DNA of 41,265 nt, taken from the NCBI GenBank assembly GCA_009602725.1, contig WELB01000007.1, forward strand, positions 250,823 through 292,087. Reading direction: 5' to 3'. The notes under the pieces were generated by a model. It was given only the letters and a program-made list of their open reading frames with translations, was not told where the DNA came from and searched no databases. Source of the DNA: Spirogloea muscicola. Its lineage: Eukaryota > Streptophyta > Zygnematophyceae > Spirogloeales > Spirogloeaceae. The translations under genes were made by a program, and so were the position numbers. Shown here piece by piece: positions 429 to 40,443 of the stretch; within the stretch, counting starts at the first letter, position 1, and the number at the start of each line of letters is the position of its first letter.

Positions 429-930
429 ATCTGGCCCGAAGCTCAGATCTGGAATACTCGGTACTGTGCTGGTGGCAGGGCTATCGCTCTCTCACCAATG
501 AAAGATCTGTGATTACAAGATGTTTTCTCTGACTTGGGATTGTCAGTCAATCAGGTGGTACGACTTTCTATGAACCATTGACGGAATCCGAGTCGGAAGT
601 CGGATCCACTATCCAGTCATGTGCTCATGGCAGGGCCAACATGCCCTCAACATCTAGAGGTCACGGGAATTGAAGGAAGCCGATCCGAAGCTCAGATGCA
701 GATTCCAGTATAAGGGTAATGGCAGGGCCAGCCAAGCCTCAAAATTTTGTTTACAACGGCTTACGATATGTCCTCCGACTTGGATGGTCAAGTCAGTCAG
801 GTATGAATATCTGTACAGTACCGAATGAAAGGATTGCAGATGTACAATGTAGTGCTGATGGCAAAGCCATCATCCCCCTCAGTATGTCAAGTGACAGACT
901 GTTTTCAATTTGGTAGGTTAGTCAATGATG
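429..930. repeat. degenerate direct repeat, period about 248 bp
   Basis: Several short blocks recur at an offset of 247-248 bp. 'ccgaagctcagat' occurs near 437 and 685, 'ggcagggc' near 476 and 722, and 'gacttgg...gtcagtcaatcagg' near 531 against 'gacttgg...gtcagtcaggta' near 778. The stretches between are only loosely similar, so this is an old two-unit tandem duplication. No protein is supported here. Confidence 0.4.
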
Positions 931-1029
931 TATCACTTCCTGCCCCTTGGCCCCTGCTGCGACTTGGCATAACTCGGCGCTTTGCAGGGATTTGCAGAGC
1001 TGCAGAGAGAGGCTACTCCAAGAGGAGGC

Positions 1030-1310
1030 AGTGATAGTGATAAGCCGGCGAGAAAAACCAACGGGAGCCCAAACGGAAGCACAAATCACTTCGGCAGAAG
1101 AAGCGTATACTCTTGATAGCCGCAGCGAAAAACCCCTGGTCGATAGCCGCAAGTCAGGCTAAATATCAAATAGCAGCAGAGAGTGACTCGGCCAACCTGG
1201 GGCAACAGCCAAGGCATGGCCACGAAATTGCAAGGTGAAAGCTTGGGAAGCTGCAGCACGACGTATAGACGCATGCAGTGAACCAGATCCAGCGAGCACA
1301 CGGGTGGGCA
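1030..1310 (-). mobile_element. decayed 3' end of a LINE-like element
   Basis: On the minus strand the sequence gives 'MRLYVVLQ', then in a shifted frame 'LQFRGHALAVAPG'. This follows the order of the conserved C-terminus seen in the better copies of this window (MRLS.SLQ.S, then HLRAGRALAAASG). Frames are broken and nothing upstream is recognisable. It is probably a very old, truncated copy. Confidence 0.35.
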
Positions 1311-1579
1311 GCCCGTGGCTGCTCACCCTGCTTCCCCTGCCAGAAGGATGCAATGAATGTAGTGGATGCAACTTACCATAGGCAGGTGGTTGCAGAAGAC
1401 CAGCCCACACGCACTATGACTGATGGGGCTGTGATGAGCTTGGTTGCCACGGGCCGTGATCCAGACATTCCATAAGCTAGGCCTGAGACAGCGTCAGTGT
1501 AGTGCGAGAGGTGGCTACACACACGGCGTATGTGAACGGAGCTCGCCTGAGAGCGTGGAAAAAGGATGCAGCTTTTGAT

Positions 1580-2105
1580 GTTATCAAGAGCGGCTGTAGA
1601 AGCCAGCTAGGTGCATACAGAGTGTGTTCAATACCATACTAACCGAGCCACAGCTCGGCAAACAAGGCGCTCTTAATACTTCCTTGTCACAAAAAGAAAA
1701 TAGATGAGCTGAGGGGAGAAAGGGCAACCGCGCTGCGCAAGCCAGAGGCTGCTGCAAGAGCGCAACCGGCTTGGCGGTGCAAAGCAAGCGCTTGGGATCC
1801 CTGGAGAGACAACATTAGACGTATGCGGTAGCAGGACACAAGACCCAAAGGCACAGAGCCTCCAGAAAGTGCTGCACCCTGTTCGCGGCGCCGCGGTCAG
1901 CTCGAGAGGCCAGCAACTAGAGTAACGAGGACCATCGACCCCGTAACAGCCGTGGATGTCCATAGCCAGCGGGTAGAATGATACTCACAGCAGGGTGGTC
2001 CGGGTACTTGCCATTTTCTGCTCGGCCACCTTCGCAACATGACCGGCACCAGGCGTAATGGGGCCTTCTTCTGAATGCTGTCAGTGAGGACGACGTCCAT
2101 GAGGA
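1580..2105 (-). mobile_element. 5'-truncated LINE copy, subtype B
   Basis: On the minus strand the 5' part reads 'MDVVLTDSIQKK', then out of frame 'MDIHGCYG', then broken pieces of the 'RAGRALAAASG' region and an ending like 'TRKY'. These match the intact subtype-B copy at 14281-15440 (MDVVLTDS, MDIHGCYGGRW, LLLTRGY) in the same order. The B-type 3' tail follows, with its hairpin near 1590-1607 and the 'cagccagctaggtgcatacag' block. Several frameshifts make it a pseudogene. The copy is cut off at its 5' end inside the endonuclease-like domain. Confidence 0.65.
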
Positions 2106-2470
2106 GCCGCTAGAGGACCGACGGACAATGTCGGATGCGAATGAGGAGGACGTCATATCTTTGCATGCTTGCCCAGACGCTCCCACGCTGGTCTTGGCGG
2201 CATGCGGCGGCCTGCACAAGGAGGGGCAATGGGATAAGCCAGTGCTTATGCACCAGTGATTTGGTAGACATGTGAACAAGCCCTGCGCCAGAGGCAGGTG
2301 GTTGACATCCTTGGCTAGACCTGGCGGGTTGTCTTGCGGAGCTCTTCGGCACAGACAGCCCAGCGCTTCGTGTGACAGAAGTCAATGGCCGTGGCGGCTT
2401 CAGATGCCACTGTCAACAGATCACAGCAGCTTGTGTATCAGCAGATGGACAGTAGACAAAAGACGGACAG
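2106..2470. other. stretch without recognisable gene
   Basis: Open frames here are short and overlap on both strands, and none resembles a known protein. The segment lies between a subtype-B LINE fragment and a hairpin-bearing LINE tail, so it may be an unrecognised part of an older insertion. Nothing further can be supported. Confidence 0.4.
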
Positions 2471-2474
2471 AGGG

Positions 2475-2560
2475 GAAGAAAATGGCTCTCCCAAAGGGGG
2501 CCAAGGGCTGTGAATAGCCAGCCCGGAGGGAATTGAAAGAGGGGATAGCACATAACGAGG
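2475..2560 (-). repeat. LINE 3' tail with conserved hairpin
   Basis: The plus strand reads 'atggctctcccaaaggggg...', then 'gggctgtgaatagccagccc' at about 2505-2524, then 'ggagggaattgaaagagg'. This is the common tail of the window's LINE clan in minus orientation: GGGCTGGC-loop-CAGCCC followed by a GGGAGAGCCA block. It stands alone with no coding part attached. Confidence 0.6.
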
Positions 2561-2631
2561 ATTCCCATCCCAGACCCCTCAATCGACACACTTTCAAGAA
2601 ATTTCGCAACAAACCCACCCAGCCTCAGGAA

Positions 2632-2805
2632 ATGGAGTGTGTAATAAGTGATGGAGGGCCTTCATGGCCAAGTACAAAGGCAAGCACACTGACATATGTA
2701 CATGACCTGCTGCTAAGCTGACCTGCTCACAAACCACGAGTCAGCACATAGAGGTCGCTAATTGATGCCCGAATACCGGACGTTGCAATCGACAAGCTCT
2801 TGTGC
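2632..2805 (-). mobile_element. LINE C-terminal end plus third-type 3' tail
   Basis: On the minus strand it encodes 'IATSGIRASISDLYVLTRGL' and a stop, the same ending as the larger LINE copies (ASG.R...SD..LLTRGY). It is followed by the tail block with 'gtgcttgcctttgtacttgg' (reverse complement of about 2665-2690) and 'ggccctccatcac'. The same unit occurs twice in tandem at 8276-8560. This third tail type lacks the GGGCTGGC hairpin. Confidence 0.6.
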
Positions 2806-3099
2806 CACCAGCTAAGGCTCGGCCAGCTTCCTGATGCAAAGCATGAGCCTGAGCTCGCTGCAGACAGGCTGACACTCGACCTCAGGGTGATAAGGAGCTC
2901 TTGCTGGATAGCCAGCGTAAGTTGCAGAAGATGCAGCTCACCTTTCTGGCGCCTTCAGGTAGCCCTCACAGGTCGCCACCACAGTCGCTTGTTCGGAGGT
3001 CGCCCTCCTGCCACTGTTGCAGCCGCCGGGCCTCTGTTGGCTTCTTTTGTCGGGGACCCCCCGCGGGCAGAGCCGTCGGGGGAACGAGCCGGGGAGTGT

Positions 3100-3240
3100 G
3101 ATCCGAGCTCCCGCAACCGCCGCCGCCGCCGCCGCCGCCGCGATTTGCGGCGCCTGCGGCGCGCGGGCGCGCGGATCCGGCGACCCCGCGCAGGCCGGCC
3201 GGCGGCGGCGGCGGCGGGCTCCGCTGCAGCCATGGGGCTC
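3100..3240. repeat. CCG/CGG-rich low-complexity block in the GDT1 5' region
   Basis: Runs of the triplets ccg, cgc and ggc fill this stretch, for example 3115-3142. Similar GC-rich blocks sit at the first exons of the ArfGAP, S6, UGGT and ZIP genes of this window. It probably belongs to the promoter/5' leader of the GDT1 gene that follows. The open frames here on both strands are composition-driven and not convincing proteins. One ATG at 3233 and another at 3361 are possible starts, but neither joins cleanly to the first certain exon. Confidence 0.45.
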
Positions 3241-3543
3241 AGCCTGGTGGAGGTGCGCAGCTCGCCGGCGCCCTTGCTGCAGCTCATCCCTCGCCCGTGG
3301 AGCGCGGCGCCGAGCTCGGGGCCCCGGCTGTGACGGCGCGCCGTCAGGCTTGCCGATACCATGGCCTCGGCTCTGCGTCGCTGCTCGTGCCAGTAAAGCG
3401 GCAGATAGCTGCGCCGGTGCCACGTCGCAGCTGCGCTCGAGCCCGTGGCTGGGCTCAGGGTGCCCTCCTTCAGCAGTTTCAGCTAAGACCATTCTCCACA
3501 TCGAGGATCGACTCGGAGAAGTTTGGTGCTTCTGCTCCTGCAG

Positions 3544-6365
3544 GGGCTGGTCAAGTCCTTCTTGATGATACTCGTGTCCGAGATCGGGGACAAGACCTTC
3601 TTCGTGGCCATGGTATGTGCCATCTCCAGCACCCTCGGAGCATGTAGAGCTTGTCAGTAATCAGCTTGAAGCTCCAATCCGGCCGTCATCTGGCGTGCTC
3701 CGGCAAGCCTTCCGTTCTCAATCAGTGAGACCCTTGCTGCAGCTGATGGCCATGCGGCACAACCGGAGGGAGGTGTTGACGGGAGCTCTGTCTGCTACCT
3801 GGGTAAGTTGCTGACAGCCATAACTGTCTCATGACATACACATAGTGCAACACTTACTGCCTATAACAATCAGCATGCTTGACTCACTGAGGTCGAGCAA
3901 GGCTGGTCAACTCTGAGCTAAGATCAGGCGTTGGGGTTTAGGAGTTGGGGTTTATCTTGCAGCAGTGATCTGCACAAACAGGCACTCTAGAGTAGGGCAA
4001 TAGTACGAAGTTAAGAAGTTTTTGCAATCATCTAGGGCTAAACCTGGGCAAAGTCGGGGCAAAAGCTCCATCTGCACCACAGAGCCTGGTTGCAATTGCC
4101 TAAACCCTTGACTGTGCCAAGGCAGCAGGAGGATACAAGCAAGAATCTTAGTGTGCAGCAAATTATACAATTCTTGCACCCTCGTGAATCTGGTACATTG
4201 TGGACAGTGGTAGCTTGACATGACATCCTCTGATGTCAATGCAGCTCATGACGATCATCTCTATGACATTTGGTGCGGTTGCGCCCACTATTGTGAGTGT
4301 TCTTTGGATAACTGCTTTAGGCCTTCAATGCAGTGCATTGGCCTCACTAAGTTGTACTGCTACAGTGCTCTTCATTCCATGCAGCTTGGTCGATTGCTTC
4401 ATGGTGGACTATCTTCAGATTGGTTGCTTGACCTTTGTGACAAGATATGCATTACCGTGCTTCAGATTCCGGCAGGCTGGACAGATGTTGCTGCCACAGC
4501 CCTTTACTTCGTCTTCGGCATTAAGTCGCTTGTAGACGGGTTTAACCACACTGGCAAGTAAGACTTAGAATCAGCCAGTGGAATGCGAGTGCCTTGATAG
4601 AAACCCCAAAACCAATACACCCACGGAAACAGATGCCGCAGATGTCCTTTAGACAGCGATTTCACTAATGAATCAAGTAAATGAGATATATTATGCTGCC
4701 ACCTCTTCCTGATTAGCCCTAGGAGGATGAGCTTGTCTGCTACTTGTGAAGCACGACTATCCCTGTTGCTGATTTTGCAACTTCATGTTGAGCTCAACCA
4801 ACTTGCTGTGCCCTCCTCACACAGCGAGCCAGGAGAGATGGCCTCCGCGCGAGCTGAGCTGGATGAAGCAGAGGTTAGTCTGCATGTGGCTGAGCATGGA
4901 ATTGTCTTCACAGCATGAAAAGTCGAGCTTGTCAGATTTCTCAGCTATCCAAGTAACACCTCCTGCCTAGAGGTTCTTCATTTATAGTCAGTATTTTGTT
5001 TCTGCCCCTCTCATGCAGGCGCGCAGGATAGAAGAAAAGGAGAAAGGAAGGAAGCTGCCTCTGTCTAGTGCTTACATGCAGGTACAACAGTAGCAGGTGC
5101 TGCTTTGGGCAGCAGCAATCATTGCTAAGGATGTGCACATTTTGAGCTGATGGAATGTTTGACTTGGGCGAGCATGGTACCTTGTCAATCAGGGGACTTG
5201 ACAAGACTTTCTTGACCCAGAATCTGCAAAGGCCCTAGACTTACAGCTGGCCAGGCCTGCACACTCAGTCTTTGAATTTTATAGCCTGCCTGCTTGAGCA
5301 CAGTAGAAATGCCTATGTAGGGCACTAAACCCCAACTATATGTAATCTGTGGCTTGCAGACTTTTGCAATGACATTCTTTGGTGAATGGGGGGATCGTAG
5401 TCAGGTGTGTAAGTAAGAAGAAGACTTGTGGAACGGCATGTCCAGAGTCATTGATGTCAGTGATGTGTAGTCTATCTTACCAGCTCCATGGCTGGATGCC
5501 TGCTATTATGCCTTACTGCCCAGAGGCTTTTCTAACGTGGCCCGTACAGAATTTGTGTCTTGGAGCTAGTTACTGATAAAGAATACGGCCCTGCAGTTTG
5601 CCACCATTGGCCTGGCGGCGCAGGAGAACGCTTTCGGCGTCACACTTGGAGGCATGCTGTATGTCCTCGTACTTTTGTTGGGAGTGCTATGGTCGTAGCT
5701 CTGCGTCGTCATTGTTATATTCACATAGTATAAGTACACGTTCCTCCATTGCCCAGGTAGACGCAAGCTTAAAAATCTGTCATGCTGCTGTAACTATCTG
5801 AATTCCCGTATTCCTGCACTTGGCACAAGGATGTATGTGTGTCAAAGTCCACTGTAGGTATGTGGGCTTCAGGCATGCTGGGTTGAAGCCTTTTAGATTG
5901 ACTTGGTGTGGCTAGTTTGACATGCTCACCATAGCTTCATCAGGGGCTGAGATGCAAATGACGACTCATTGAGTAGTGCTTCCTGAAAAGCTTGAGCTGG
6001 TTGGCACAAGCTGCAAGCACTACCCAACATTCTGGTCTCCATTCTCACCTGCGAGAATCATGCCAAGGCGTCCTCATCAGCGTCTGATAGTAGCACATGT
6101 CAAGGCCACTAAGCAAGATATCCTATTGTCTGTTCTTGGTTTAGAGGGCACCTTCTGTGTGCAACCTTTGCAGTATTTGCTGGCGATTATGTGTCACATA
6201 CATTGTCGGAAAAGATGGTGAGTTTGTTCTTCCGTCACCGAACTTTGAGCTCAATCACTTTATGCAGCTCGTTATTTGACAATAGCAGTGGTGCTTACAT
6301 ATCTCACACTGCTGTTCATTAAGAACATTGCAAAAGGAATTGCTTGTAACCATATGGGGGGGTAA
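3544..6365 (+). CDS. GDT1/TMEM165-family (UPF0016) membrane transporter, Golgi type; N-terminus unresolved
   Basis: Family members move Mn2+/Ca2+ in exchange for protons, in Golgi or plastid membranes. Both signature motifs are present, SEIGDKT (exon 3544-3612) and GEWGDRS (exon 5360-5404). Exons I can join: 3544-3612, 3743-3802 (LMAMRHNRREVLTG), 4245-4292 (LMTIISMTFGAVAPTI), 4466-4557 (...ALYFVFGIKSLVDGF), 4723-4873 (ends AELDEAE), 5019-5081, 5360-5404, 5597-5658 (FATIGLAAQENAFGV), 6145-6221 and 6268-6365. The last donor is GTTTGT at 6222, not GTGAGT at 6218, because only this keeps the final helix (RYLTIAVVLTYLTLLF) in frame. The MAMRHNRR and VAPTI segments resemble the Golgi branch more than the plastid PAM71/CMT1 branch. 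The start codon lies upstream; Golgi members have only a few residues before this first helix, so the missing exon may be tiny. Exon 4723-4873 may be too long, and one short exon between 5081 and 5360 could be missing. Confidence 0.88.
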
Positions 6366-7330
6366 ATGTCTCGAATGCCCTTTCTTATGTTGAGGTCTAT
6401 TGGCAACAAGGGCAGAGGTGAAGACGACTTGCTGCTGCTCCCTATCGATCTCGGACTGCTAATCCCCTATCTGGCATTGTTGAATCTGCTGCAGATGTCG
6501 TATATGGGTGGAGGCTTATTCCTCTGCTTTGGTGCCAACTCACTAGCAACCATTAATTTCCACCAATTTTTTTAGCTGTCTCTTGAGCATGGCCCTATTT
6601 GCACCCGTGGCTGAGATGGAGAGCAGACGAAGGTGTTTGTGTCATTCTTCCATTGCAAGCGCTGGTGCAAATGGCAAGGGCGCCAGCTTAGTTCTCATAT
6701 TTGCCCTCCTTTGTCCCCCTTTTGCCTTTGGACAAACTTCAGCGAGGTAGGAGGCAAAGGGACGGAGGGGGAGAATAAAGACGCATGTCAGCTTGGAGCC
6801 CAGCAGTTGGCTCAGATCATAGTATCAACTACCAGTAGATCCTCCCAGTGTATTTCCACTGGGAATGCAAATCTGATGTGCAAGCCAGGTGCATTGCTCG
6901 ACCAACTCACCATGATCGAGTCAGGCAATGCAGCATTGGTGATGGCAAGTGTCAAGGTCGACCTACAATGTGGTATGAGGACGGCACCTCATTAGTGAAT
7001 AAGGCGGCTAGCTGCATGCTTGTCAGCCAGGTGCACACCTCAAAGGCACGTGTAAGACTCTACAAAGGAGCTGGCGGTTTGTCAAGGTCAGGACAACGAG
7101 CAGGTTCTCTTACATGAGCTGGTAATGGCTCGCCTCTTTCAGAGCTTAGGCCAACTTTTCTCAAGAATCATAATATTTGGTACTCAGAAACTGGAAGCTA
7201 CTGAAGCTAGCAATGGCAGGTAGCACATGGAGGCTGCCCAAGTTCTATCAGCCAAGGCTGGTGGCCTGACGTTGCTCATAGTTGAGAGCAGCGGTAGGCC
7301 ATGCGAGCCTGGAGCAGGGCAACTGGGCTG
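6366..7330. other. intergenic, no gene seen
   Basis: This lies between the convergent GDT1 and ArfGAP genes and should contain both 3' untranslated regions. Open frames are short and do not resemble anything. The one visible feature is an imperfect inverted repeat: 'gtcccccttttgcct' at about 6713-6727 faces 'aggcaaagggac' at about 6752-6763, able to form a stem of roughly 12 pairs. Confidence 0.4.
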
Positions 7331-7388
7331 CCGATGAATGTGGAGGGAGGAGAGGCTAGGAGAAGACGCAACCAGGCATGCAGCGGCA

Positions 7389-8801
7389 TCAGGAGGTGGC
7401 AGTCACAGCGCCCCAGTCCTCTCCCCAGTCCTCCCATGCGTCGTCGATGGCACGCCTAGCTGCGCTGCCGCCTGTGTCCCGCTTGGTGGCTGCTGCGGTG
7501 CTGCGGCAGGGCTGCCCTCTCGATGTGACGGCCTGCACAAGCCGGGCCCCCAGCTTCAGCGCAAGCTCCGAAGACATACACAGAGGGCAGCAGGCAGTGG
7601 CAGCGGCTCCTCACCTTTGGCAGCGGCCGTGGGGGTGGCGGCGGCGCCCTCCATGCACGGCCCTCCAGCTCCGCCTGCAGGAGTTGCAGAGCTGGCACGG
7701 CTTGATCAGGGCATTGCCATGACCTCCGAGGAAGTCCAGAAGGTGGCGGCTGCGATGGCCGTGGCCGGCAAAGGCGACGAGGAGGGAGCAGCAGGAGCTC
7801 GGCAGAGGGCCGTGCCGCCCACCTGGAGCTTCTCGCGGTAGAGTACTGCAGCTGCGGACGTGTACTTGGCCTCAATGTCGGGCAGGCCCTCGGCGGCTCT
7901 GTCATCATAGAGGTCCAGGAACTCCCGCAGCGCGTCATTGCCGCCGGCCTGGCTTCCCACATTGCGACGTAAGAGCTGGTCAGCATAGCTCCTACTGGGA
8001 TTCAACGGTGGCCGGAGCTGCCCACAACCCTGGCTGGCAATGGCTCCCGCTCGGCCAGCGGCGGCCTGAGAGGAGGGCGGCGAGTGGGCTCACCGCCATG
8101 GCGCGGAGCTGCAGGGGCGTCCAGCTGTCCATGGTGACGGAGCGCACAAAGGAGACGTGGACGCCGAGCGCGCGGTGCCGGCCGGAGCACTCGAGGCACA
8201 CAAACACGCCGCAGCTGCGCGCAACGGCGAACAGTGGAGAGAGGTTCAGGACGTTGGAAAGAAGCGAAGGAATGTGGAGTGTGTGCTGAGTGATGGAGGG
8301 CCTGAGTGGCCAAGTACAAGGGCAAGCACACTGACTGATGTACATCACCTGCCGTAAGCTGACCCGCTCAGTGACCACGAGTCAGCACATAAAACCGGAG
8401 TGTGTATTGGGTGATGGAGGGCCTGAGTGGCCAAGTATAATGACAAGCACATTGACTGATGTACATCACCTGCCGCTAAGCTGACCCGCTCAATGACCAT
8501 GAGTCAGCACACAGAGGTCGCTAAGTGATGCCCGAATACCGGACGGCAATTGACAAGCCCAGGAAGGAGGAGAGGAGCAGGACATGGCGGCTGTGGGCCC
8601 AGCGTCGCATCGACAAAAGCGGCGGCAAATGCGGCAGCGGCAGCGCCGCCGCGGCAGCCGCGGCGGCGGCCATGGTGGTGAGCCTGTGCGGCACCTGACG
8701 GAGGCCCACTGGGGGCTCTTGCGGCGGCAGTCGGCGCACTCGCGGTTGCCGGCGCGCGCCTGCAGCTCCCGCAGCCGCCGCAGGGCCTCCGGGGAGGCCA
8801 T
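7389..8801 (-). CDS. ArfGAP1-type ARF GTPase-activating protein (AGD6/7-like)
   Basis: It stimulates GTP hydrolysis by ARF GTPases on Golgi and endosome membranes. The start is ATG at 8801 ([14 protein letters not shown]). Exons: 8695-8801, 8094-8214, 7823-7948, 7615-7674 and a last exon of about 7389-7532. The first four join in frame. The zinc finger is C-x2-C-x16-C-x2-C (CADC...CLEC) and is followed by the catalytic arginine in GRHRALGVH and by [11 protein letters not shown], all diagnostic of ArfGAP domains. The donor of exon 1 is AG|GTGCCG, which gives PQWASVSCGVF; the earlier GT would break the frame. The C-terminus ends with [12 protein letters not shown], like the Trp-Asp motifs at the end of plant AGD6/AGD7. 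The predicted product, about 185 residues, is far shorter than those relatives (about 450), so a middle exon may be missed or the protein reduced. Intron 1 carries two tandem LINE tails. The TTCAGGG array begins 38 bp upstream of the start codon. Confidence 0.9.
8276..8560 (-). repeat. two tandem LINE 3' tails (121-bp unit) inside ArfGAP intron 1
   Basis: Unit 1 begins at 8276 and unit 2 at 8397, each starting 'ggagtgtgt', so the period is 121 bp. Both contain 'ggagggcctgagtggccaag' and 'actgatgtacatcacctgcc' and end in 'gagtcagcaca'. Past the second unit, the minus strand encodes '[17 protein letters not shown]' and a stop, the C-terminal end of the window's LINE clan. A third copy lies at 2632-2805. 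Confidence 0.75.
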
Positions 8802-8838
8802 GGACGTGGGCGCCCACGAGGCCGGCGCCGCCGCGGCG

Positions 8839-8839: not shown

Positions 8840-11179
8840 CCTGAACCCTGAACCCTGAACCCTGAACCCTGAACCCTGAACCCTGAACCCTGAACCCTGA
8901 ACCCTGAACCCTGAACCCTGAACCCTGAACCCTGAACCCTGAACCCTGAACCCTGAACCCTGAACCCTGAACCCTGAACCCTGAACCCTGAACCCTGAAC
9001 CCTGAACCCTGAACCCTGAACCCTGAACCCTGAACCCTGAACCCTGAACCCTGAACCCTGAACCCTGAACCCTGAACCCTGAACCCTGAACCCTGAACCC
9101 TGAACCCTGAACCCTGAACCCTGAACCCTGAACCCTGAACCCTGAACCCTGAACCCTGAACCCTGAACCCTGAACCCTGAACCCTGAACCCTGAACCCTG
9201 AACCCTGAACCCTGAACCCTGAACCCTGAACCCTGAACCCTGAACCCTGAACCCTGAACCCTGAACCCTGAACCCTGAACCCTGAACCCTGAACCCTGAA
9301 CCCTGAACCCTGAACCCTGAACCCTGAACCCTGAACCCTGAACCCTGAACCCTGAACCCTGAACCCTGAACCCTGAACCCTGAACCCTGAACCCTGAACC
9401 CTGAACCCTGAACCCTGAACCCTGAACCCTGAACCCTGAACCCTGAACCCTGAACCCTGAACCCTGAACCCTGAACCCTGAACCCTGAACCCTGAACCCT
9501 GAACCCTGAACCCTGAACCCTGAACCCTGAACCCTGAACCCTGAACCCTGAACCCTGAACCCTGAACCCTGAACCCTGAACCCTGAACCCTGAACCCTGA
9601 ACCCTGAACCCTGAACCCTGAACCCTGAACCCTGAACCCTGAACCCTGAACCCTGAACCCTGAACCCTGAACCCTGAACCCTGAACCCTGAACCCTGAAC
9701 CCTGAACCCTGAACCCTGAACCCTGAACCCTGAACCCTGAACCCTGAACCCTGAACCCTGAACCCTGAACCCTGAACCCTGAACCCTGAACCCTGAACCC
9801 TGAACCCTGAACCCTGAACCCTGAACCCTGAACCCTGAACCCTGAACCCTGAACCCTGAACCCTGAACCCTGAACCCTGAACCCTGAACCCTGAACCCTG
9901 AACCCTGAACCCTGAACCCTGAACCCTGAACCCTGAACCCTGAACCCTGAACCCTGAACCCTGAACCCTGAACCCTGAACCCTGAACCCTGAACCCTGAA
10001 CCCTGAACCCTGAACCCTGAACCCTGAACCCTGAACCCTGAACCCTGAACCCTGAACCCTGAACCCTGAACCCTGAACCCTGAACCCTGAACCCTGAACC
10101 CTGAACCCTGAACCCTGAACCCTGAACCCTGAACCCTGAACCCTGAACCCTGAACCCTGAACCCTGAACCCTGAACCCTGAACCCTGAACCCTGAACCCT
10201 GAACCCTGAACCCTGAACCCTGAACCCTGAACCCTGAACCCTGAACCCTGAACCCTGAACCCTGAACCCTGAACCCTGAACCCTGAACCCTGAACCCTGA
10301 ACCCTGAACCCTGAACCCTGAACCCTGAACCCTGAACCCTGAACCCTGAACCCTGAACCCTGAACCCTGAACCCTGAACCCTGAACCCTGAACCCTGAAC
10401 CCTGAACCCTGAACCCTGAACCCTGAACCCTGAACCCTGAACCCTGAACCCTGAACCCTGAACCCTGAACCCTGAACCCTGAACCCTGAACCCTGAACCC
10501 TGAACCCTGAACCCTGAACCCTGAACCCTGAACCCTGAACCCTGAACCCTGAACCCTGAACCCTGAACCCTGAACCCTGAACCCTGAACCCTGAACCCTG
10601 AACCCTGAACCCTGAACCCTGAACCCTGAACCCTGAACCCTGAACCCTGAACCCTGAACCCTGAACCCTGAACCCTGAACCCTGAACCCTGAACCCTGAA
10701 CCCTGAACCCTGAACCCTGAACCCTGAACCCTGAACCCTGAACCCTGAACCCTGAACCCTGAACCCTGAACCCTGAACCCTGAACCCTGAACCCTGAACC
10801 CTGAACCCTGAACCCTGAACCCTGAACCCTGAACCCTGAACCCTGAACCCTGAACCCTGAACCCTGAACCCTGAACCCTGAACCCTGAACCCTGAACCCT
10901 GAACCCTGAACCCTGAACCCTGAACCCTGAACCCTGAACCCTGAACCCTGAACCCTGAACCCTGAACCCTGAACCCTGAACCCTGAACCCTGAACCCTGA
11001 ACCCTGAACCCTGAACCCTGAACCCTGAACCCTGAACCCTGAACCCTGAACCCTGAACCCTGAACCCTGAACCCTGAACCCTGAACCCTGAACCCTGAAC
11101 CCTGAACCCTGAACCCTGAACCCTGAACCCTGAACCCTGAACCCTGAACCCTGAACCCTGAACCCTGAACCCTGAACCC
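8840..11179 (-). repeat. perfect TTCAGGG (CCCTGAA) 7-mer array, about 333 units
   Basis: The plus strand is a continuous run of CCCTGAA from 8840 (starting with a 6-base partial unit) to 11176, then 'ccc'. The full-unit part is 2331 bp, exactly 333 x 7, and the conceptual translation shows the same heptapeptide (GFRVQGS) throughout, so there are no indels or substitutions that break it. The minus strand is G-rich, with GGG every seven bases and TTCA spacers. It differs from the Arabidopsis-type telomere repeat TTTAGGG by one base. It lies between the ArfGAP 5' end and the S6 3' end. It could be an interstitial telomere-like satellite or real telomeric DNA caught in a misjoined scaffold. Confidence 0.97.
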
Positions 11180-11565
11180 CTCATTCTCATCCTGATTGTG
11201 AGTGGACGGTCGACTAGAAAAGATTGTAGCACTGGAAGGCTGGGTTACTCACCTGTTTGGTCTGTGATGATTTCAGATCCTGAATACGACCTGTGTTTAT
11301 CAGGCTAATGCAATCTATATGTGAAGGAGGTGGCAGGACTGTAGCTGACTGAAGATGACATGATCCACGACCAACGAAGGGTGCACTTAAGTAACGAACT
11401 CAGCAAACAAGGGCAGCGCAAATATTTATGCGAGATGGTCCTGACATATCCAAGCATTGTGGCAGCTCTGCATTAGCAGTGTGCGGCTAAATCACTAAGA
11501 GGGAACATGGCTGACCAAAAATGACGTCCATGTAGAAGAGATGACGATAGGAAAAACGGCAATGA
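11180..11565. other. intergenic, probably S6 3' region
   Basis: This is ordinary mixed sequence between the end of the 7-mer array and the S6 stop codon. I see no ORF of note, no LINE tail hairpin and no repeat unit. The 3' untranslated region of the minus-strand S6 gene is expected in its right part. Confidence 0.4.
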
Positions 11566-12496
11566 CTACAGCTTGAGCCTGAATGACGTGGACCTGATGA
11601 TGTCATCGTCCGAGTTCATCTTCTTCTGCAGCGTCGCGAGGCTCTCTGTCTTTGTGACGTAAGTGAACAGCAGGTAGATGCCATCGAGGTACCGGGTAGC
11701 CATCCCTCCCATGTTCTTTGTCTTGATGCTGTAGGCAAGCGGCTGAATGCCCCTGTTGAACATTTCCACGTCCAATGCGCCACCCGCGACCAGGGCCTGA
11801 TGGGCAGAGGCGGGGATAAAACCTCAAGTTGGTGAGTGCAGCGTCCCCGTGCTGTTCTGTCATGGCAAGAAAAGCACGCCCGCAACAGCGGAACGCTGGG
11901 TCGGCAGGCCGTGGGAGGCGCCAAGCTGGCAGGGCGTGCGACGCGCCGACCTAGAGGCAGGGCGGCCAGCAGTGGAGAGCCCCGGCCTGCAACGCACCTC
12001 CTCATACCGCTCGGTGAGGGCCACGCGCTCCTCGTCCGAGAGGTCGGGCCGCAGAACCACCATGGTCTCGTAGCGCGCCATGCCGGGGGGGTACTCGCGT
12101 GGGGCTCTCACCGCGTCCTCCTCGTCAATGCCAGCCAGGTTGTCCTGCCAGGTGGAGCAATGCCTCGCACTGGCGCTGAGGCGGTGGCCAGCAGGCTTGG
12201 GGCCGTGCGCGAGGGACGACGAGCGTGGCCGGCTGCTTGTTGGAAGAGAGCGCGTGGCATGCGACAGCGAGGGGAGGGGGCGTCACCTGCATGGCAACGT
12301 TGCGCGGGCCCGCCAGGGCAGCATGGCGGCGCAGGTGCGGCAGGAGGGCAGGCGCGGCGCAGGAGGAGGGGGAGGGGCGAGCGCGGCCCAGCGCAGCGCG
12401 GGTGCAGCTGTAGGCGGAGGCGGAGGCGGAGGCGGAGGCCGGGGCGGCGGCAGCGGCGGCGGCAACGGTGGGACTTAGGGCGGCCGGGGAGGCCAT
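11566..12496 (-). CDS. plastid ribosomal protein S6 (bS6c), nuclear-encoded
   Basis: This is a small-subunit protein of the chloroplast ribosome that binds 16S rRNA together with S18. Three exons join in phase 0: 12287-12496, 11998-12144 and 11566-11796, giving about 195 residues. Exon 1 starts MASPAALSPTVAAAA and is rich in Ala, Ser and Arg with almost no acidic residues, as in a chloroplast transit peptide. Exon 2 carries the S6 start RYETMVVLRPDLSDEER and ends in TERYEE. Exon 3 continues ALVAGGALDVEMFNRG, PLAYSIKTKNMGG and YLDGIYLLFTYVTK and closes with DDDIIRSTSFRLKL; these segments closely follow land-plant PRPS6. LINE tails begin about 150 bp upstream of the start codon (12655 onward), in the same orientation. 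All splice sites are GT-AG. Confidence 0.95.
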
Positions 12497-12639
12497 GGCG
12501 TGGGAAACAGGGGAGAAAAACACGGGGGTTGGGGAGCTCTCTTTGAGGCGGCGCCCTAAAATCAGGACTGGGACTTTGGGCTCATGAGACGAAGCTCTTC
12601 CGATGGGAAAAGCGCGTCTCGAGTGATGACAATCGAAAG

Positions 12640-13090
12640 CTCCTCCTAACAGAAGAAGTGGCTCTCCCAAAGAAGGTAGGCACTGGGAAAGGCCAGCCCA
12701 AAAGAAGTGGACAAGGTCCAAAGAGCCGAAAAGCAAGCGCGGCCAGATTAAATGGTGGCTGGGAGAGGCCAGCCCAAAGGAATGAGGAAGAAGTGGCTCT
12801 CCCAATGGGGGCAAGGGCTGTGAGAAGCCAGCCCGAAAAGAATTGACAAGGTTCGAAGGGGCCAAACTACGAGCTAAGCAGCGACTGCGGGGCCTGAAGA
12901 GGCTATGGCAGAACGGGGGAGGATGGACCACTCAGTAGTTACGAGTGAGGAGCCTCACATCCGACAGACTAGCTGCCGGTAAACTATCCCCCTGACGAAA
13001 GCCGGAGGCCGCAGCGAGAGCACGGCCAGCACGCAGATGCAAGGCGTGGGCCGGAAAGGAATGGACAAGGTCTGAAGGAGCCGGAGCGCT
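12640..13090 (-). mobile_element. short LINE 3' end with a tail bearing three hairpins
   Basis: Read on the minus strand, 13075-12934 encodes 'HALHLRAGRALAAASGFRQG' and ends 'SDVRLLTRNY' with a stop at about 12932. The tail then follows (GGTCCATCCTCCCCCGTTC..., CCTTCGAACCTTGTC). Hairpins are at 12816-12835, 12760-12778 and 12687-12703, each followed by a CCACTTCTTC-like block, so at least three tails have accumulated. The 5' end is truncated at about 13080, where the tail of the next upstream copy begins. Confidence 0.8.
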
Positions 13091-14280
13091 AAGAATTGAG
13101 ACAGCAGCAAGCGGGAGAAGGGCTCGCCCATTGAGGATAGGGGCTGGGAAAAGCCAGCCCAGAAAAGAATGAACAAACAAAGAATGAACAAAGGACGAGA
13201 AGGGGCCAGGGGAAGTACGAAGAACAAGCAGCACTAAAAAGAAACGAAGCAGCTACGAAGCACTCAGTAACCCCTGCTAAGCAGCCTCAGGTCAGAGAGA
13301 CTGGGTTCCTGGAAGCGGGTCCCCTGGCCAGAGCCAGAGGCAGCAGCGAGGGCTCTGCCTGCACGCAGGTGCAGCGCGCGGGCCATAGACCTCTGCAGCG
13401 AGACGGCCAAGCGCCAAGCGCATGCGGTACACCTGCGCTAGCGACCCTGCTGCATGGAAGTCCACCGGCTCCCCATGGAAGCGCAGACGATAGCGTGACG
13501 TGAGAGCTGGGTGAGCAGCTCGAGCCACCGAGCGCCCAGCGCCCCGTGCGTATCGATGGCGAGCGGGAAGAACTCGTCTTCCCGCGGGTGATCTGCGTAT
13601 TTTAGCTCCTTGGCCCGAGCGGCGCAGGCTACCGCATACCCAGCCTTGGTGGCACACTGGGTTGGATGTGAGCGGTCATAGGAGTCAGTGGTCACCACGT
13701 CCAGGAGAAGACGTGGCCCGCCTGCTGGTGGGGTGGCCACAAGGTCCATGCGACGAGCGTGGAGACCGTCGGCCCGTTGCTGGAGCGGCATGACGGCAGA
13801 GTTCTCGGCTGCCACCGAGAAGCCAGCCTCCACAAGGATGCCATGCATCGCATCCCGGAGATGGTCGTGGGCCGCTGTCCGCTCTCCGCCGTGGGAACAG
13901 CGCAGAGCATGAGCGGCCAGCTCCCCAGGCTCGGTCCCTCGCTCGCCACATTCACACTGTTGCACACCCTGGAGACACGGCGGCGGCAGGCCCAGGAGCC
14001 GGTGGACGGCACTGCGCAACACCTCGTCCGGGAGTGTGAGGGCTTCATTGAGGGGGAGGGCCTGGAGCCACGCCGCGGCCCCCGGGGAGGAGGCCGAGTG
14101 GAATCGGGCGCGCCCGCGCAGGTCGGCCTCCGGGAGCTGGAGCAAGGCGGTGGTGAAGGCTGCCTTGTCCATTGCGGCTGCGAAGCGCGCTTGGACGCGC
14201 AGGTCGGCAGTGTGCGCGAGGTGCGCAAAGGAGACCGCCTGGCCCACCAGGTCCGGGTGCACCGCGAAGGGAAGCGGCTG
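13091..14280 (-). mobile_element. 5'-truncated LINE copy A (zinc knuckle plus endonuclease-like domain), frameshifted
   Basis: The open frame 14262-13438 encodes a C-x-C-x12-H-x3-C knuckle (QCECG...AAHALRC), then GERTAAHDHLRDAMHGIL, 'AAENSAVMP', 'HARRMDLVA', 'LLLDVVTTDS', 'KELKYADHP' and 'HGALGARWLELL'. A frameshift near 13500 moves the rest ('GSLAQVYRMRL', then the damaged end) into other frames. This layout, a CCHC knuckle then a PD-(D/E)xK-type fold, is that of restriction-like-endonuclease non-LTR retrotransposons (R2/NeSL-like) and related algal and oomycete elements. The reverse transcriptase domain is absent by 5' truncation. The tail contains the hairpin at 13141-13160. Confidence 0.85.
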
Positions 14281-15440
14281 CTGATATTAAAAGAGCGGCT
14301 GTGAAAGCCAGCCAGATGCATACAGGTGTTCATGACGGAGCCACAGGCTAGACAGCCAGGGCGCTCTTAGTAACCCCGTGTCAGCAGTAGGAAGTCAGAT
14401 GAGCTGAGGGGAGGAAGAGCAACCCCGCTGCGCAAGCCAGAGGCTGCTGCAAGGGCACGACCAGCGCGGCGATGCAAAGCAAGCGCTTGGGAACGCTGTA
14501 GCGACATAGACAAACGCATACGGTAGCAGGACACAAGACCCAAAGGCACCAAGCCACGGGGAAGGGCTGCACCCTGTTCCCGGCGCCGCTGGTCAGCTTG
14601 AGATGCCAGCAGCGAAAGTAACGAGGACCACCGACCCCCGTAACACCCATGGATGTCCATGGCCAGGGGGTAAAAGGTATCACCCGCCGGGTGGTCCTTG
14701 TACTTGTGCAACTTCTTCTGTTCGGCCACCTTCACGGCATAGCCGGTCTCAGAAGTTACGGGGCCCTTCGTCCGGAAGCTGTCGGTTAGGACGACGTCCA
14801 TGAGAAGCCGCTTGCCACCTCCCAGGGGGACGCCGACCAGATCGACACGCCGCGTCCGATGGACCCCGTTGCGGAGCTGGACGGGCATCACCCCGGTGCT
14901 CTCCAACGCCACTTGATATCCCGCCTCCTTGACGATGCCATACATGGCGTCACGTAGGAGGTTGTGGGAGCCCGTGCGCTCACTGCCTTTGGCACACCTG
15001 AGCATGTGGTCACCCATGAGCACTGCATCATGCTCAATAAGCCCACATTCACATTGGGTCACCCCTGCCAAGCACAGGGATGGTAAGCCAAGACGGCGGC
15101 GCATAGCATCGCAGAACAAAGCATTTTCCATCCGCAAGCCCGCATGCAAACGCAAAGCGCGGAGCCACTCAGACGCTCCCAGAGACGATACAGATAGGAG
15201 CCGAGCCTGGCCTCGAGCATCCCCTTGGAGGAGACTCTCGGAGATGCTCCAGTGGTTGCGAGCAGCTCCTGGTGGGCGGAGCGTAGCGACGCCTGGAAAG
15301 GCAGCACACCCGTGTCTACCTCCACCACCGCCTGCTCCAGCGCACGCTGGCCGTGGACCAATCAAAACGCTGGGCCACGGAGGCGGCTGTCTGCGCCCAG
15401 CTGCCGAGGTACGCTGCCCGGGAGGAACGGACGAGGTGCG
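14281..15440 (-). mobile_element. 5'-truncated LINE copy B with complete C-terminus and 3' tail
   Basis: The open frame 15365-14367 covers 332 residues. It has the same knuckle (QCECGLIEHD...GDHMLRC), 'ALESTGVMP', 'RTRRVDLVG', 'LLMDVVLTDS', 'LHKYKDHPAGD', 'MDIHGCYGGRW', 'HRRAGRALAAASG' and the ending 'LLLTRGY'. The first 30 or so residues may be host or read-through sequence. The tail (14366-14281) has the hairpin at about 14295-14313 and ends 'AATATCAGCAGCCGC', directly abutting the truncated 5' end of copy A. Subtype B differs from A and C in 'VLTDS' and 'GCYG'. Confidence 0.87.
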
Positions 15441-16690
15441 GACTCTCAGTAACCTCTAGTCTGTAGATTGCAAGTCTGAATAGCTAGCAGGCGGAAAGAC
15501 GTCGCCTGACGGAAGCCGGAGGCCGCCGCCAAAGCGCGGCCTGCACGCAAGTGGACCGTGAAGGCAAGGGACCGCTGCAAAGAGATGGCCAAGCGCATCC
15601 GGAAGACTTGGGCGAGGGACCCGGCGACATTAGCGCCAGGCTGCTTGCCCTGCTGCCCGTGGCGGCGGGCCGCTGCTCGCCGCGCAAGGCGGTGAAGCAG
15701 GTCAAGCCATTTTGCGCCAAAGGCGCCGTGTACGTCGACGGCGAGTGGGACAAACTCGTCTCCCACTGGGTGATCCGAGTATTTCAGTTCCTTGGCGCCT
15801 GCGGCTTGGCGGACTGCGTAGCCCGCCTCCTCCGACGAGCGTTTGGCGCTCCTGGAATCAAAAGAGTCAGTTGTGACGACGTCGGCAATGAGCCGAGGTT
15901 CCCCGCCGAGCGCGCTGGCGACGAGATCGGCGCGCTGGGTGTGGAGGCGGCCATCCGCCCCTGCGGTCGGTGGCATGATGCTGGTATTCTCGAGCGCCAC
16001 ACTGTGACCGGCCTCCACGAGTATGCCAAACATGGCATTGCGTAGCAAGTCGTGGGTGCCCGTCCGCTCCCCTCCCCGTGCGCACAGGAGCATATGGGCC
16101 GCCAAAGACGCCGCGACAGGGCTGCGCTCGCCGCACTCGCATTGCTGTACTCCACTTAGGCAGGGTGGGTGGAGGCCGAGTAGGCCGTGCACCGCCGTAC
16201 GGAATGCGTCGTCCGGCACTCGAAGCGCATCGTGGATCAGCAGAGCAGACAACCAAGCAGCCGCCCCTGGTGAGGACGCCGAGAGCAGCCGCGCGCGCCC
16301 CCGGAGGTCGTCCGGAGGCAAAAGCCCCAACGCCGTGGAGAAAGAGGCCGCATCTACCTCCGCCATGAAGCGAGCTTGGGCCCGGAGGTCGGCCGTGCGC
16401 GCGAGGAGAGCGAACGGGACGGCCTGGGGCACCAGGGCGGGGTGATCCGCGAGCTGCGCTTCCCGGGCTGAGCGGAGAGCCGTATGGAATGGCAACGTGC
16501 CAGTCTCCACGTCCGCGGCCGCGTGCTCCAGGAGGCGACCCCGATGCCGCTTGAAACGCTGGGCCACCGAATCCGCAATCCGCCCAACTCCCCAGGTGTG
16601 ATGCCCGGCAGGCACGAGCCAGCGGACGGCAGCCCAGACCCCCTCGGCTCACAGGCAGGGAGGCCTGGTGCACTGCAGCCGGCCTGGTGC
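15441..16690 (-). mobile_element. 5'-truncated LINE copy C with the longest intact ORF (389 residues)
   Basis: The frame 16615-15446 is uninterrupted from 'MPAGHHTWGVGRIADSV' to 'LQTRGY' and stop. Order of parts: an N-terminal stretch (ALRSAREAQLADHP, RTADLRAQARFM, DLRGRARLLSASSPGAAAW), the knuckle QCECGERSPV...AAHMLLC, 'ALENTSIMP', 'HTQRADLVA', 'LIADVVTTDS', 'KELKYSDHP', 'VDVHGAFGAKWLDLL', 'GSLAQVFRMRL', 'HLRAGRALAAASG'. Candidate nuclease acids are the E of 'LEN', the D of 'ADLV' and the D of 'ADVV'. It is probably a dead fragment because it lacks the reverse transcriptase. Its open frame suggests recent insertion. The 5' end carries a 19-bp direct repeat at 16662-16699. Confidence 0.87.
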
Positions 16691-16699
16691 ACTGCAGCC
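16662..16699. repeat. 19-bp perfect tandem repeat at a LINE-LINE junction
   Basis: 'ggcctggtgcactgcagcc' occurs at 16662-16680 and again at 16681-16699 without a gap, exactly where the truncated 5' end of copy C meets the tail of the next element. It may be a junction duplication made during insertion. Confidence 0.85.
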
Positions 16700-17340
16700 G
16701 AAAAGAAGTGGCACTCCCAATGGGGGGCAAGGGCTGTGAAAAGCCAGCCCGAAAAAGAATTGACAAAGGTTCGAAGGGGCCAAATGAAGGAGGGGCCTTA
16801 AGAGAAAGGGCTCGCCATCGAGGATAAGGGCTGGAAAAGCCAGCCCAAAATAGAACAGAGTACGAGAAGGGGGCCAGGCGAAGCGCTAAGAACAACAAGC
16901 ACAACAAGAAACAAAAAGCGCTAAGCAGCTACGAAGGGGAGCCGAAAGGCGCCTAAACCACAGCTATGCACAAGACAGTCGCAGATGGGAGCTTAGTAAT
17001 CACGAATTAGCAGCAGCAAGCCGGAGTTACTCGCAGCTGGAAATGAGGCACCCCGACGAGACCCAGAGTAGGGGGCGGATGATAGGGGCAAATGGCCATG
17101 TTTTGTCAGCCCCAAATAGAGGAACGGACAAGGTCTGAAGGTGCCGGGAAACCGTGAAAGACAGCTCGATCATAAGAAGAAAGAGCTCTTCAATGGAAGA
17201 AAGAAGTGAACAAGGTCCGAGTTCAACAAGGAGTAAGCTCATCCCGAGGAGGCGAGGGCTGTGAAAATCCGGCCCCAAAAGAGCGGACAAGGTCCGAAGG
17301 TGCCGGAAGTGTTCAGCAACTATACAAGTGCCATAATCGA
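16700..17340 (-). mobile_element. stack of LINE 3' tails
   Basis: Hairpins in minus orientation occur at 16731-16750 (gggctgtgaaaagccagccc), 16828-16846 and 17248-17268. Each lies near a 'tctcccaatgggggcaag' or 'ctcgccatcgaggata' block and a 'gacaaggtncgaagg' block. Around 16985-17035 a remnant of the coding end is visible (minus-strand 'CTAATTCGTGATTACTAA'). No complete coding domain is present. Confidence 0.7.
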
Positions 17341-17880
17341 TGGCCACTGAGTAATTTGTAGGAAGCAGCCGCAGTCAGAAAGACTAGCTGCCTCGATGCA
17401 GTCCCCTTGACGAATGCCAGAGGCGGCAGCTAAAGCACGGCCAGCTTGCGATTGCAAAGCGTGGGTCAAGGACCACTGGAGGAATACAGACAGGCGCATA
17501 CGAAACACCTGAGCGAGCGAGCCAGCTGCATTGAAGTCAGCCTGCTCGCCCCGCCTACGGGACACAGTGTGGCGCGCAAGCTGGGCCGAAGCTGGGCTGT
17601 GGACTGCCAGCCCCGAGATGATAAACAACATCCGAATTGGCCGGAAAGCTCTGAACAAACACGACTGAGTAAGTACCACGAAGGATGGTCACTCAGTAAC
17701 CCCAGTAAGCAGCCGCAAGTCCGAAAGAAAGAAATACTCTTCCAAAGTAAGGCAATGGCTGTGAGAGGCCAGCCCAAGCGGACTAGCCGCCAAAAGTAGT
17801 CCCCTTGACGATAGCCAGAGGTGGCAGCTAGAGCACGGCCAGCTCGGAGCTGCAAGAAGGAAAGGGCCGGAATGGGCAAG
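17341..17880 (-). mobile_element. two short LINE 3' ends with hairpin tail
   Basis: On the minus strand 17590-17350 encodes 'LARHTVSRRRGEQADFNAAG', 'SLAQVFRMRLS' and 'QSQAGRALAAASGIRQGDC', the last fifth of the LINE protein. A second, shorter piece at 17690-17860 shows 'LRAGRALAATSGYRQGDYF' with a hairpin at 17757-17775. Both are 5'-truncated and lie in the same orientation as copies A, B and C. Confidence 0.75.
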
Positions 17881-17884
17881 AAAT

Positions 17885-18590
17885 ACACGAAATTCCTCTC
17901 TGGGACTCCTTGCTTGGCTTCGTGTCAGCCCCTTCCATTGCCTACCCATTTTCCCCTGCTTCGCCCCGCACCTTGGCTCCGTAGTCCGCTCGTCATTCTT
18001 GCACACAGTGGCTGCCCTCCAGTGGCTGATTTGGGCTCTATGCACAGCCAAAGCTGATCCCAGCGCTTGCATAGCTCACCCACCCTCCTTCCCGCATGCC
18101 CTCCCCCCCTACCATACCCTCTGTGGACTTGCCGGCGCTAATTTTGTCGCACCACTTGGTTCTGTTGGGCTGACCAGAGCAGCACCTGGTTAATCGGAGA
18201 AGCCAAGTTATGACAATCTCGAATAAGCGCACAGCACATCCCAGCCTTGCGGCCCTCCAGGGTGGCCTCTTGGCCCTCACTGAGCCTGCTCAATCCACCT
18301 CCTCATACCTATGGCTGGGTCCCACCCCACCTCGCTCGAAGCTCGAAGTATCTCACTCCTTGCAAGGCTGGCACACCCTGGCACGTCATCGCAGCTGCAT
18401 GCCTGCCAGCAGCTGCCCACCCATATACCAGCCCCACTCACCACGTACCTGCTCCCGAGCATCAGCCGGGGAGCAGGTCCTTCTGTGCACCGCCTCTTCA
18501 TGCCCCACTTGAGAGACTGCGCATGAAGCTCTTGCTTCTAGTCATGTGCAAGGGAGGCGCGGAGCGCAGGCGGCGGGCCCTTATTGGAAA
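17885..18590. other. no gene recognised; 3' flank of the CCCH gene
   Basis: This is C- and T-rich mixed sequence with overlapping short ORFs on both strands and no recognisable protein. No LINE hairpin is seen. Part of it should be the 3' untranslated region of the zinc-finger gene, which ends at 18591. Confidence 0.4.
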
Positions 18591-20260
18591 TCAAGGAGCT
18601 GCGGTATGCCCGCCTTCTTCTGCAGCCGTCTCAGCCTTATTGCAGGCCTCCTCCTCCAGCGCTGCAGGCAACGGCGCCACTGGCGTCTCGGCCAACGAGG
18701 ACGAGGAGGGGCTGTAAGCCAGCTGCCTCATGGGGTGGTCGAATTTGCAAGTAGGACCGAACTTGCAGATGCCATACCGCTCGTAGAACGCACATGCCGG
18801 CCCGCCCTGCACGATGCCCACCAAAATGCCACCCTCACGTTTTGCCAATAAGCAGCCACCTATCAGGCATTTACCCACCCAAAGCGGACAGGCACAAGCG
18901 TATGTGCGAGAAGCTGGGACGATGAGCAGCCGTGTGTACCGGGCGCAGCGGGAGCCCCATGGGGCTGAGAGAGCACGTGGGCGAGGGCACGATGCGATTG
19001 CGTGGATGGTGATACTTGCAGCTGAGCCCAAACTTGCAGTCCCCAGTCATCATGTAATGCTGGCACTCTGACTGGCCTGGTCTCTCCGGGTAGATGGCAA
19101 AGCCCGGGTGCATGGCCAAGCCGGGCGCAACTGCCCCATACAGGTCTGTGTATGCCTGCATGGGCATCAGCCCAAGCTGCTGCATGTAAGCCGCCTGTGG
19201 CAGCAGCAATTGCTGCCGCTGCTGCGGATATAGTTGGTGTGGCTGTGGCTGGATGACGTGATGGAGGTCGTCATGCCCCGGCCCATGCGCCACCTGTTCC
19301 ACAGTGCCCTTCCCCACGTCATGGTCATCGACAAGGAGCGATCGGGTGGAGCAGCTGCACCAGAGCTACAGGGTCATCACGCCCACGGGGAGCAGTATCG
19401 GCTGAGTGAGGCAGTTGTCCACGGGATGGGGGCGGATGGGAGCGAGACCTGATGGTAGGCCCAGCCAGGGGGAAGCGCCAAAACCGATGGCTGCATGAGT
19501 GCCTGCCCATCATATGCTGGTGAGCCGCCCCGCAGGAGGGGGGCTGCAGAGAGGGAGAAGGAAGAGGGCGATGGAAGGGGGCAGCTGTCTTGTTGCAGCA
19601 GAGGGTGGTGGAATCGGCACGACTCCCCAAACTTACACTGCCCTGTGCGCATGTAGTGCGGGCATTCCCTTTCTCCCTGCAAACAAGCAGCGCTGGCAGC
19701 GTGGTGAGGTCGATTGACTTCGCAGGCCCTGGCAACACCCGCGGGTGAGCCCGGCCGTGGGCGCCCGCCCCCCAGTGGCACCTCAGGGCAGCAGGCACAA
19801 GCCCCCCACAAGGTAAGAAGCGCCTTCAGAAGGCACGCTTCAGCCGGTCATCAGCCAGGGCGTGGGAGAGGGCAGCACGTCGGGGCGACTTTGAGCTCAC
19901 TCGTCTCAAGGGCAGGCCGAGCGGGCTGAGGTGGGTGCGGGTGGGTGATCGGGCTTTGTCCCGAGGATGGTTGTACTTGCACACAGCTCCATACTTGCAC
20001 GTGCCAGTCCTGAGGTAGTACTGCTCCATCCGGGGAACCAGGCCGTGTCCCCACCAACCACCAGCACCACGTCATGCATGCACTGCATGCAGCAGCCGGC
20101 ACACCGCCAGGCGCTGCCGAGGCAGCGGCTGGGGCCATGGGAGGGCCACTGTGCAGGCGAAGGCACGAGGTAGCCGAACCTGGCAGTCTGGATGGCCTGG
20201 CCTCTGAGGGGCTTCTCGAGCTGCTTGGGAGCCCGACGTGGACGGCCCGTCGCGCCGTGG
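18591..20260 (-). CDS. plant-type CCCH zinc-finger protein (ZFN-like), 5' end missing
   Basis: It is probably an RNA- or DNA-binding regulator of the plant ZFN/ZC3H family. Exons: 20180-20260, 19901-20020, 19449-19676, about 18940-19290 and 18591-18806. The first three join in phase 0. Four C-x8-C-x5-C-x3-H fingers are visible: the first spans an intron (RPGHPDCQ joined to [19 protein letters not shown]), then [22 protein letters not shown] in exon 3, [22 protein letters not shown] in exon 4 and [22 protein letters not shown] in exon 5. Linkers such as LGLPLR and YPERPG are typical. Land-plant members usually have five fingers, so the first finger and the start codon may lie in an exon beyond 20260; there an N (20329) and a LINE tail interrupt the sequence. 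Exon 4 is rich in Gln and His before its finger. Its acceptor is uncertain. Confidence 0.88.
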
Positions 20261-20328
20261 CTGCAAGAGCCAGGGCAGGGCAGCGGCAGAGCGGGCCGGG
20301 TGAGGGGAGCTGAGGGGGCGGGGTGGAG

Positions 20329-20420
20329 NCCTTTGGCTCCGTCATGAACACCTGTATGCATCTGGCTGGCATTTCACAGCCGATTCTTTCATATCAGCAG
20401 CCGCTTTCTCTTTTCCCTTT
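20329..20420 (+). mobile_element. single-N join followed by a subtype-B LINE tail
   Basis: Right of the N at 20329 the plus strand reads 'ggctccgtcatgaacacctg', 'catctggctggcatttcacag' and 'atatcagcagccgc', the B-type 3' tail also found at 14281-14366, 31081-31190 and 35215-35290. Its hairpin is at 20369-20390. No coding part is attached. The N probably sits at or near the insertion border next to the CCCH gene. Confidence 0.75.
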
Positions 20421-20559
20421 TCCCCCGGGCCGCCGGGAGCACGGGGGTGCGCCCCGCCAATGGCGACGCGCCCGCCGACCTCCCGCCCGCCCCCCCCCCC
20501 GACGCTCGAGCTGGCACCCCCTTTGTTTGTGCTCGTTTTCCGGACTGCTTCCCCTCCAC

Positions 20560-20900: not shown

Positions 20901-20929
20901 AATCAAGTGCTCGCCCGCATGGAAGCGGA

Positions 20930-21155: not shown

Positions 21156-21162
21156 TACTCCG

Positions 21163-40440: not shown

Positions 40441-40443
40441 GAA

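Follow-up and report, generated by a model that had tools for sequence, protein, structure and literature searches.

A perfect TTCAGGG array beside a single N in the Spirogloea muscicola assembly is probably gap-filler output and no evidence for a new telomere repeat

A stretch of 41,265 nucleotides from Spirogloea muscicola (the window hereafter; C7:250823-292087) carries more than 2 kb of uninterrupted TTCAGGG, one base away from the TTTAGGG of plant telomeres. The question raised by this locus is whether the array is a recently expanded satellite, the genuine telomere repeat of the organism caught in a scaffold by a misjoin, or filler produced during assembly. These three origins had been offered in an earlier note, and they are weighed here against a search of the whole assembly (153 Mb, 471 contigs).

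The array covers 2,340 bp at an exact period of 7, amounting to 334.3 copies (TRF) or, in the TTCAGGG phase, 333 whole units at 8846-11176. It contains no mismatch or indel, which excludes chance and confirms the initial description of a perfect, indel-free array. The plus strand reads CCCTGAA; TTCAGGG is on the minus strand, with its 3' end directed toward the N. Base composition differs on the two sides, with 84% GC over the 100 bp that precede the N and 46% over the 200 bp that follow the array. The two features concerned are:

8839, no strand: single N, read as the remnant of an unclosed gap
8840-11179, minus strand: perfect (TTCAGGG)n array with the 3' end of its G strand at the N; its length is judged to be gap-filler output

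The left junction of the array is a gap character and not sequence. The term interstitial, under which the array was first described, is accurate within the scaffold, but it does not extend to the sequence itself: unique sequence continuous on both sides, as in an interstitial telomeric repeat or satellite, is found on the right only, the left edge being an N that no sequence crosses. All three minus-strand frames are open through the array because its period of 7 is stop-free, and this explains the apparent protein-coding repeat (GFRVQGS...), which was rejected.

Gene pieces were identified on both sides of the N:

7992-8381, minus strand: open frame, next piece of the ArfGAP gene (Pfam PF01412, 58.3 bits)
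8682-8801, minus strand: start of the ArfGAP gene (Pfam PF01412, 29.7 bits, cut-off 28.7), with a putative ATG at 8801, 38 bp from the N
11566-11823, minus strand: open frame, C-terminal part of ribosomal protein bS6 (Pfam PF01250, 31.8 bits, cut-off 27)
11860-12282, minus strand: open frame, N-terminal part of bS6 (PF01250, 19.4 bits, below the cut-off of 27)

Provided that the scaffold is ordered correctly, the array sits upstream of the ArfGAP gene and behind that for bS6. Elsewhere, the window includes a CCCH zinc-finger piece (PF00642; 19377-19847, minus strand), a ZIP zinc transporter piece (PF02535; 35425-36294, plus strand), and repeated open frames at 13438-16648 and 39706-40461 (minus strand) with similar protein text (LGLPPPCLxGVQQCECGE...) that we take to be typical of retroelement ORFs.

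Across the assembly, (TTCAGGG)4 gave 92 forward and 340 reverse matches, and seven sites account for all 432: the window (330), C441 (86), C147 and C174 (5 each), C300 (4), and C14 and C31 (1 each). The perfect runs at these sites are 333, 89, 8, 8, 7, 4 and 4 units long, respectively. The two long arrays, in the window and on C441, each stop at a single N, and every TTCAGGG run of more than eight units abuts an N. The short blocks have no N within 7 bp, that on C174 having one 10 bp off, and the blocks on C300 and C147, as well as a three-unit block on C239, lie at most about 320 bp from a contig end. TTCAGGG therefore appears in this genome as a single-substitution, telomere-proximal variant of the plant telomere repeat, with blocks near contig ends that number 3-8 units and in several cases adjoin TTTAGGG units (C300, C147, C174). 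An identical block, TCTAGGG(TTCAGGG)4CCGC, was observed at C14:1089409-1089436 and C31:310435-310462 within two matching stretches, just after GTGAG, a possible splice donor; this telomere-like block has apparently been retained in both copies of one gene.

The relationship between telomere-type arrays and N was examined in a set of 203,947 letters, in which fetched loci and the window were merged by coordinate. Among the 23 perfect telomere-type arrays of at least eight units in this set, whose loci were picked from pattern matches (initially mostly '+' matches) and not at random, 18 are bordered by an N, no more than 7 bp off, where the G strand has its 3' end; at its 5' end this holds for none. 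Twelve of these 18 adjoin one isolated N, as in the window, and the other six a run of N (C59, C102, C114, C158, C166, C256). The remaining five arrays also sit near an N or a contig end:

C256:162693, no directly abutting N: one variant unit precedes the N-abutting block
C174, no directly abutting N: an N lies 10 bp away
C107, C22 and C147, no abutting N: at most about 320 bp from the contig end

In the pattern searches, an N stood on the 3' side in 9 of the 100 matches listed (139 in total) and on the 5' side in 0 of the 100 listed (128 in total), the TTTAGGG search patterns missing some phases of a break. All nine arrays of at least 38 units among the chosen loci abut an N, and the terminal TTTAGGG runs at ten contig tips are only 3-5 units long; array length therefore tracks the adjacent gap. 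The window array thus combines a perfect low-complexity run ending at an N with, for this chosen set of loci, a length linked to the neighbouring gap, both being features of gap-filler run-on.

Three further loci have telomere-type repeats head-to-head across an N: C27 (TTTAGGG x11, TT, N, CCCTAAA x64), C441 (TTCAGGG x89, TTCA, N, CCTAAA, CCCTAAA x6 and more) and C256 (TTTAGGG x13, TTTAGG, N4, TAAA, CCCTAAA x6). These look like pairs of ends that were scaffolded together and filled from both sides, and the scaffolds probably join chromosome ends falsely. The window, in contrast, is telomere-like on the right side of its N only. By eye, C27 right of 906317 and C441 right of 15570 are similar in sequence, and this shared sequence to the right of the arrays is perhaps a subtelomeric repeat. 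C60:418827, C78:319469 and C92:523190 also share one and the same string of 32 bases, made up of TTTAGGG variants with CCGC at the end, perhaps as three copies of one intron or repeat.

Homopolymers also run into N in this assembly, where 151-nt runs of T or A start at 12,184 + 35,132 positions. Among the 21 homopolymers inspected, which were the first 21 of 116 matches to G+T121, 20 end at an N and are 122-124 nt long; the exception is A269 on C3, without an adjoining N. At C14:1087500-1089111, an uninterrupted stretch of T, 1,612 nt or longer, stops at N57. The N runs beside the 20 homopolymers comprise at least 171 bases and can also represent left-out stretches, which makes this comparison weaker; the objection applies less to most telomere-type arrays, where the adjoining N is single. 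The homopolymers that run into N are what a filler without a stop signal in a repeat would produce, and such output can reach the kilobase scale.

An origin as assembler filler, the last of the three offered earlier, is the best supported of them, because an N adjoins the array, the same signature recurs at other arrays, and homopolymers run into N. On the sequence evidence, the window array very likely goes back to a short block of real TTCAGGG units that terminated the bS6 contig on the left and was mechanically extended into a gap. From these patterns we infer both the gap filler with its mode of action and the seed, whose true length would be small. The contig starting near 11180 would have borne, on its left, a small number of genuine CCCTGAA units oriented as at a chromosome end, and scaffolding would have placed this bS6 contig beside the ArfGAP contig, which ends in the GC-rich sequence. 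A short-read gap filler may then have lengthened the repeat from the right via overlapping reads. Since a perfect repeat gives such a filler no stop, it would have run on without ever meeting the other side, leaving one N. The short seed at the contig end perhaps marks a mis-joined chromosome end. The array as described is accordingly to be regarded as probably not a real feature. Some observations sit less easily with extension by a filler: TTCAGGG blocks of 7-8 units near contig ends (C147, C300) imply that longer real blocks are possible, the A269 run on C3 lacks an N, and the compared loci were not a random sample. Literature searches on gap closing with telomeric repeats and misassembly yielded no account of this exact artefact, and those on Spirogloea with GapCloser yielded no match. 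According to the sections of PMC8848313 available to us, gap closers often insert sequence unlike the truth; the window would resemble those errors in its wrong inserted sequence, although that paper tests long-read closers.

The second genome copy provides a further view of the join, and the two flanks of the array are syntenic to two different contigs:

760-8813, no strand: left flank, piecewise synteny with C90:566967-574793 at 83-88%; contig C90 ends at 574799
11175-30836, no strand: right flank, piecewise synteny with C4:874678 down to 854174

On the left, window positions 760-2629 and 2880-7031 match C90:566967-573000 at 83-87% (matches above 350 bits), and 7338-8813 matches C90:573307-574793 at 88%. 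The end of C90, six bases past the last match, corresponds to a point about 20 bp before the N. On the right, 11175-12652 matches C4:874678-873354 at 75-83%, and 18527-30836 matches C4:870000-854174 in three pieces at 91-94%. The array is absent from the equivalent point on C4, where 960 bp of other DNA are found instead, followed by CCCTAAA x11, an N and an LSM7-like exon. This exon, just right of the N, was matched over 26 residues at 85% by an LSM7 peptide used as query. No convincing LSM7 first exon was found in the 5.7 kb left of the C4 N, though the gap may contain it. The sequence right of that N had four short matches besides itself and no other full copy. In the two copies, then, the gene opposite bS6 across the N and its telomere-type repeats is not the same, which implies a false join or a rearrangement. 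If bS6 lies near a chromosome end in both copies, the joins on C7 and C4 would both be false. Further along the window, synteny with C4 (matches above 350 bits; C4:840001-870000 compared) ends at 30836, before an N run at 30857-30884, and 30836-30884 could be a second doubtful join. The stretch at 20323-21140, around a single N at 20329, is about 0.8 kb in the window and about 4.2 kb on C4.

Among the other explanations, a real kilobase-scale TTCAGGG block at a chromosome end, with the bS6 contig forming that end and only the ArfGAP join being false, survives best but is unlikely. It would be consistent with the telomere orientation of the array toward the N, with the second long TTCAGGG array in like orientation beside TTTAGGG units on C441, and with the bS6 segment of C4, where a telomere-type array and an N likewise follow, 960 bp on, with a different gene opposite. 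TTCAGGG is moreover frequent in Arabidopsis, with variant arrays of up to 3,384 bp in the sections of PMC11406999 available to us, a length that also speaks against a filler. However, no TTCAGGG run of more than eight units occurs without an abutting N, and the published variant arrays are mixtures of units, as far as PMC9827991 and PMC11406999 are represented by their accessible sections, versus 333 identical units here. It is quite unlikely, too, that TTTAGGG caps most chromosomes while one or two ends (the bS6 end and the left part of C441) keep homogeneous TTCAGGG blocks of tens to hundreds of units, their uniformity owed to recombination or a second telomerase template.

A recent expansion of an interstitial satellite that would link ArfGAP to bS6 without a break on either flank is very improbable. 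The scaffold order would agree with it and perfect units would suit a very recent expansion, but no sequence crosses the N, the flanks are syntenic to different contigs of the second copy, and the equivalent point on C4 has no array. This possibility, listed first in the earlier note, gained no positive support.

The telomere repeat of the organism can be read from its contig ends. Matches to (TTTAGGG)3 number 439 + 313 in the assembly, and among 57 contig ends inspected altogether, ten tips, located via TTTAGGG matches, carry a terminal perfect TTTAGGG array of 3-5 units with the 3' end of the G strand outward:

Contig tips with terminal TTTAGGG: C10, C73, C84, C88, C107, C117, C131, C277, C312, C329

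A further tip, on C300, has two TTTAGGG units and then TTCAGGG units. The count at contig ends that had been proposed as a check on a TTCAGGG telomere consequently went against it, all ten terminal arrays being TTTAGGG, and no contig tip coincides with any of the seven (TTCAGGG)4 sites; TTCAGGG does not hold the place at chromosome or contig ends that the telomere repeat of an organism occupies. Ordinary TTTAGGG telomeres are the likely state of this genome. The TERT RNA-binding domain matched three loci (C42, C39, C8), so telomerase is probably present, and the three TERT-like loci fit a multiplied genome. Spirogloea muscicola has undergone a whole-genome triplication. An accessible section of PMC11096116 mentions 'all three copies' of one gene. 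That TTCAGGG is the general telomere repeat has next to no probability: it differs from TTTAGGG by one base and three TERT-like loci suggest a telomerase, but every tip with a terminal array carries TTTAGGG, and (TTCAGGG)4 is restricted to its seven sites. From the idea of a telomere repeat caught by a misjoin, the mis-join at a telomere-oriented contig end stays plausible, whereas TTCAGGG as the telomere was rejected because of the contig tips.

Extension of a short seed by a gap filler would mean that the length and perfection of the array are probably software output and provide no evidence for a new telomere repeat or satellite. Telomere-type arrays and homopolymers running into N should be treated as suspect in this assembly. 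Should long reads confirm the block, its homogeneity as a stretch of variant units would be unusual.

The resemblance to telomere variants of plants noted at the outset was correct, TTCAGGG having been published for Arabidopsis (PMC11406999) and Cycas (PMC9827991). In the telomeric regions of Arabidopsis thaliana, TTCAGGG is a high-frequency variant according to the available sections of PMC11406999, and the window has in common with it the same 7-mer, its head-to-tail arrangement and a telomere-proximal zone. In Arabidopsis, canonical and further units are interspersed among the variants, whereas the window presents 333 identical units that end at an N. In Cycas, blocks of TTCAGGG occur in pericentromeres, as described in parts of PMC9827991, and as in Spirogloea the variant is non-telomeric in position with TTTAGGG at the ends; those blocks are megabase-sized, contain intermingled variants and were shown by FISH, whereas the window has one run known from the scaffold alone. 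The TTCAGG and TTTCAGG variants of Genlisea, which had been cited for comparison, were confirmed in the available part of PMC7046594, and like TTCAGGG they have a C within the T-run of the telomere unit. They are, however, different units described there as the telomeric sequence of the plant, whereas in Spirogloea the contig tips carry TTTAGGG.
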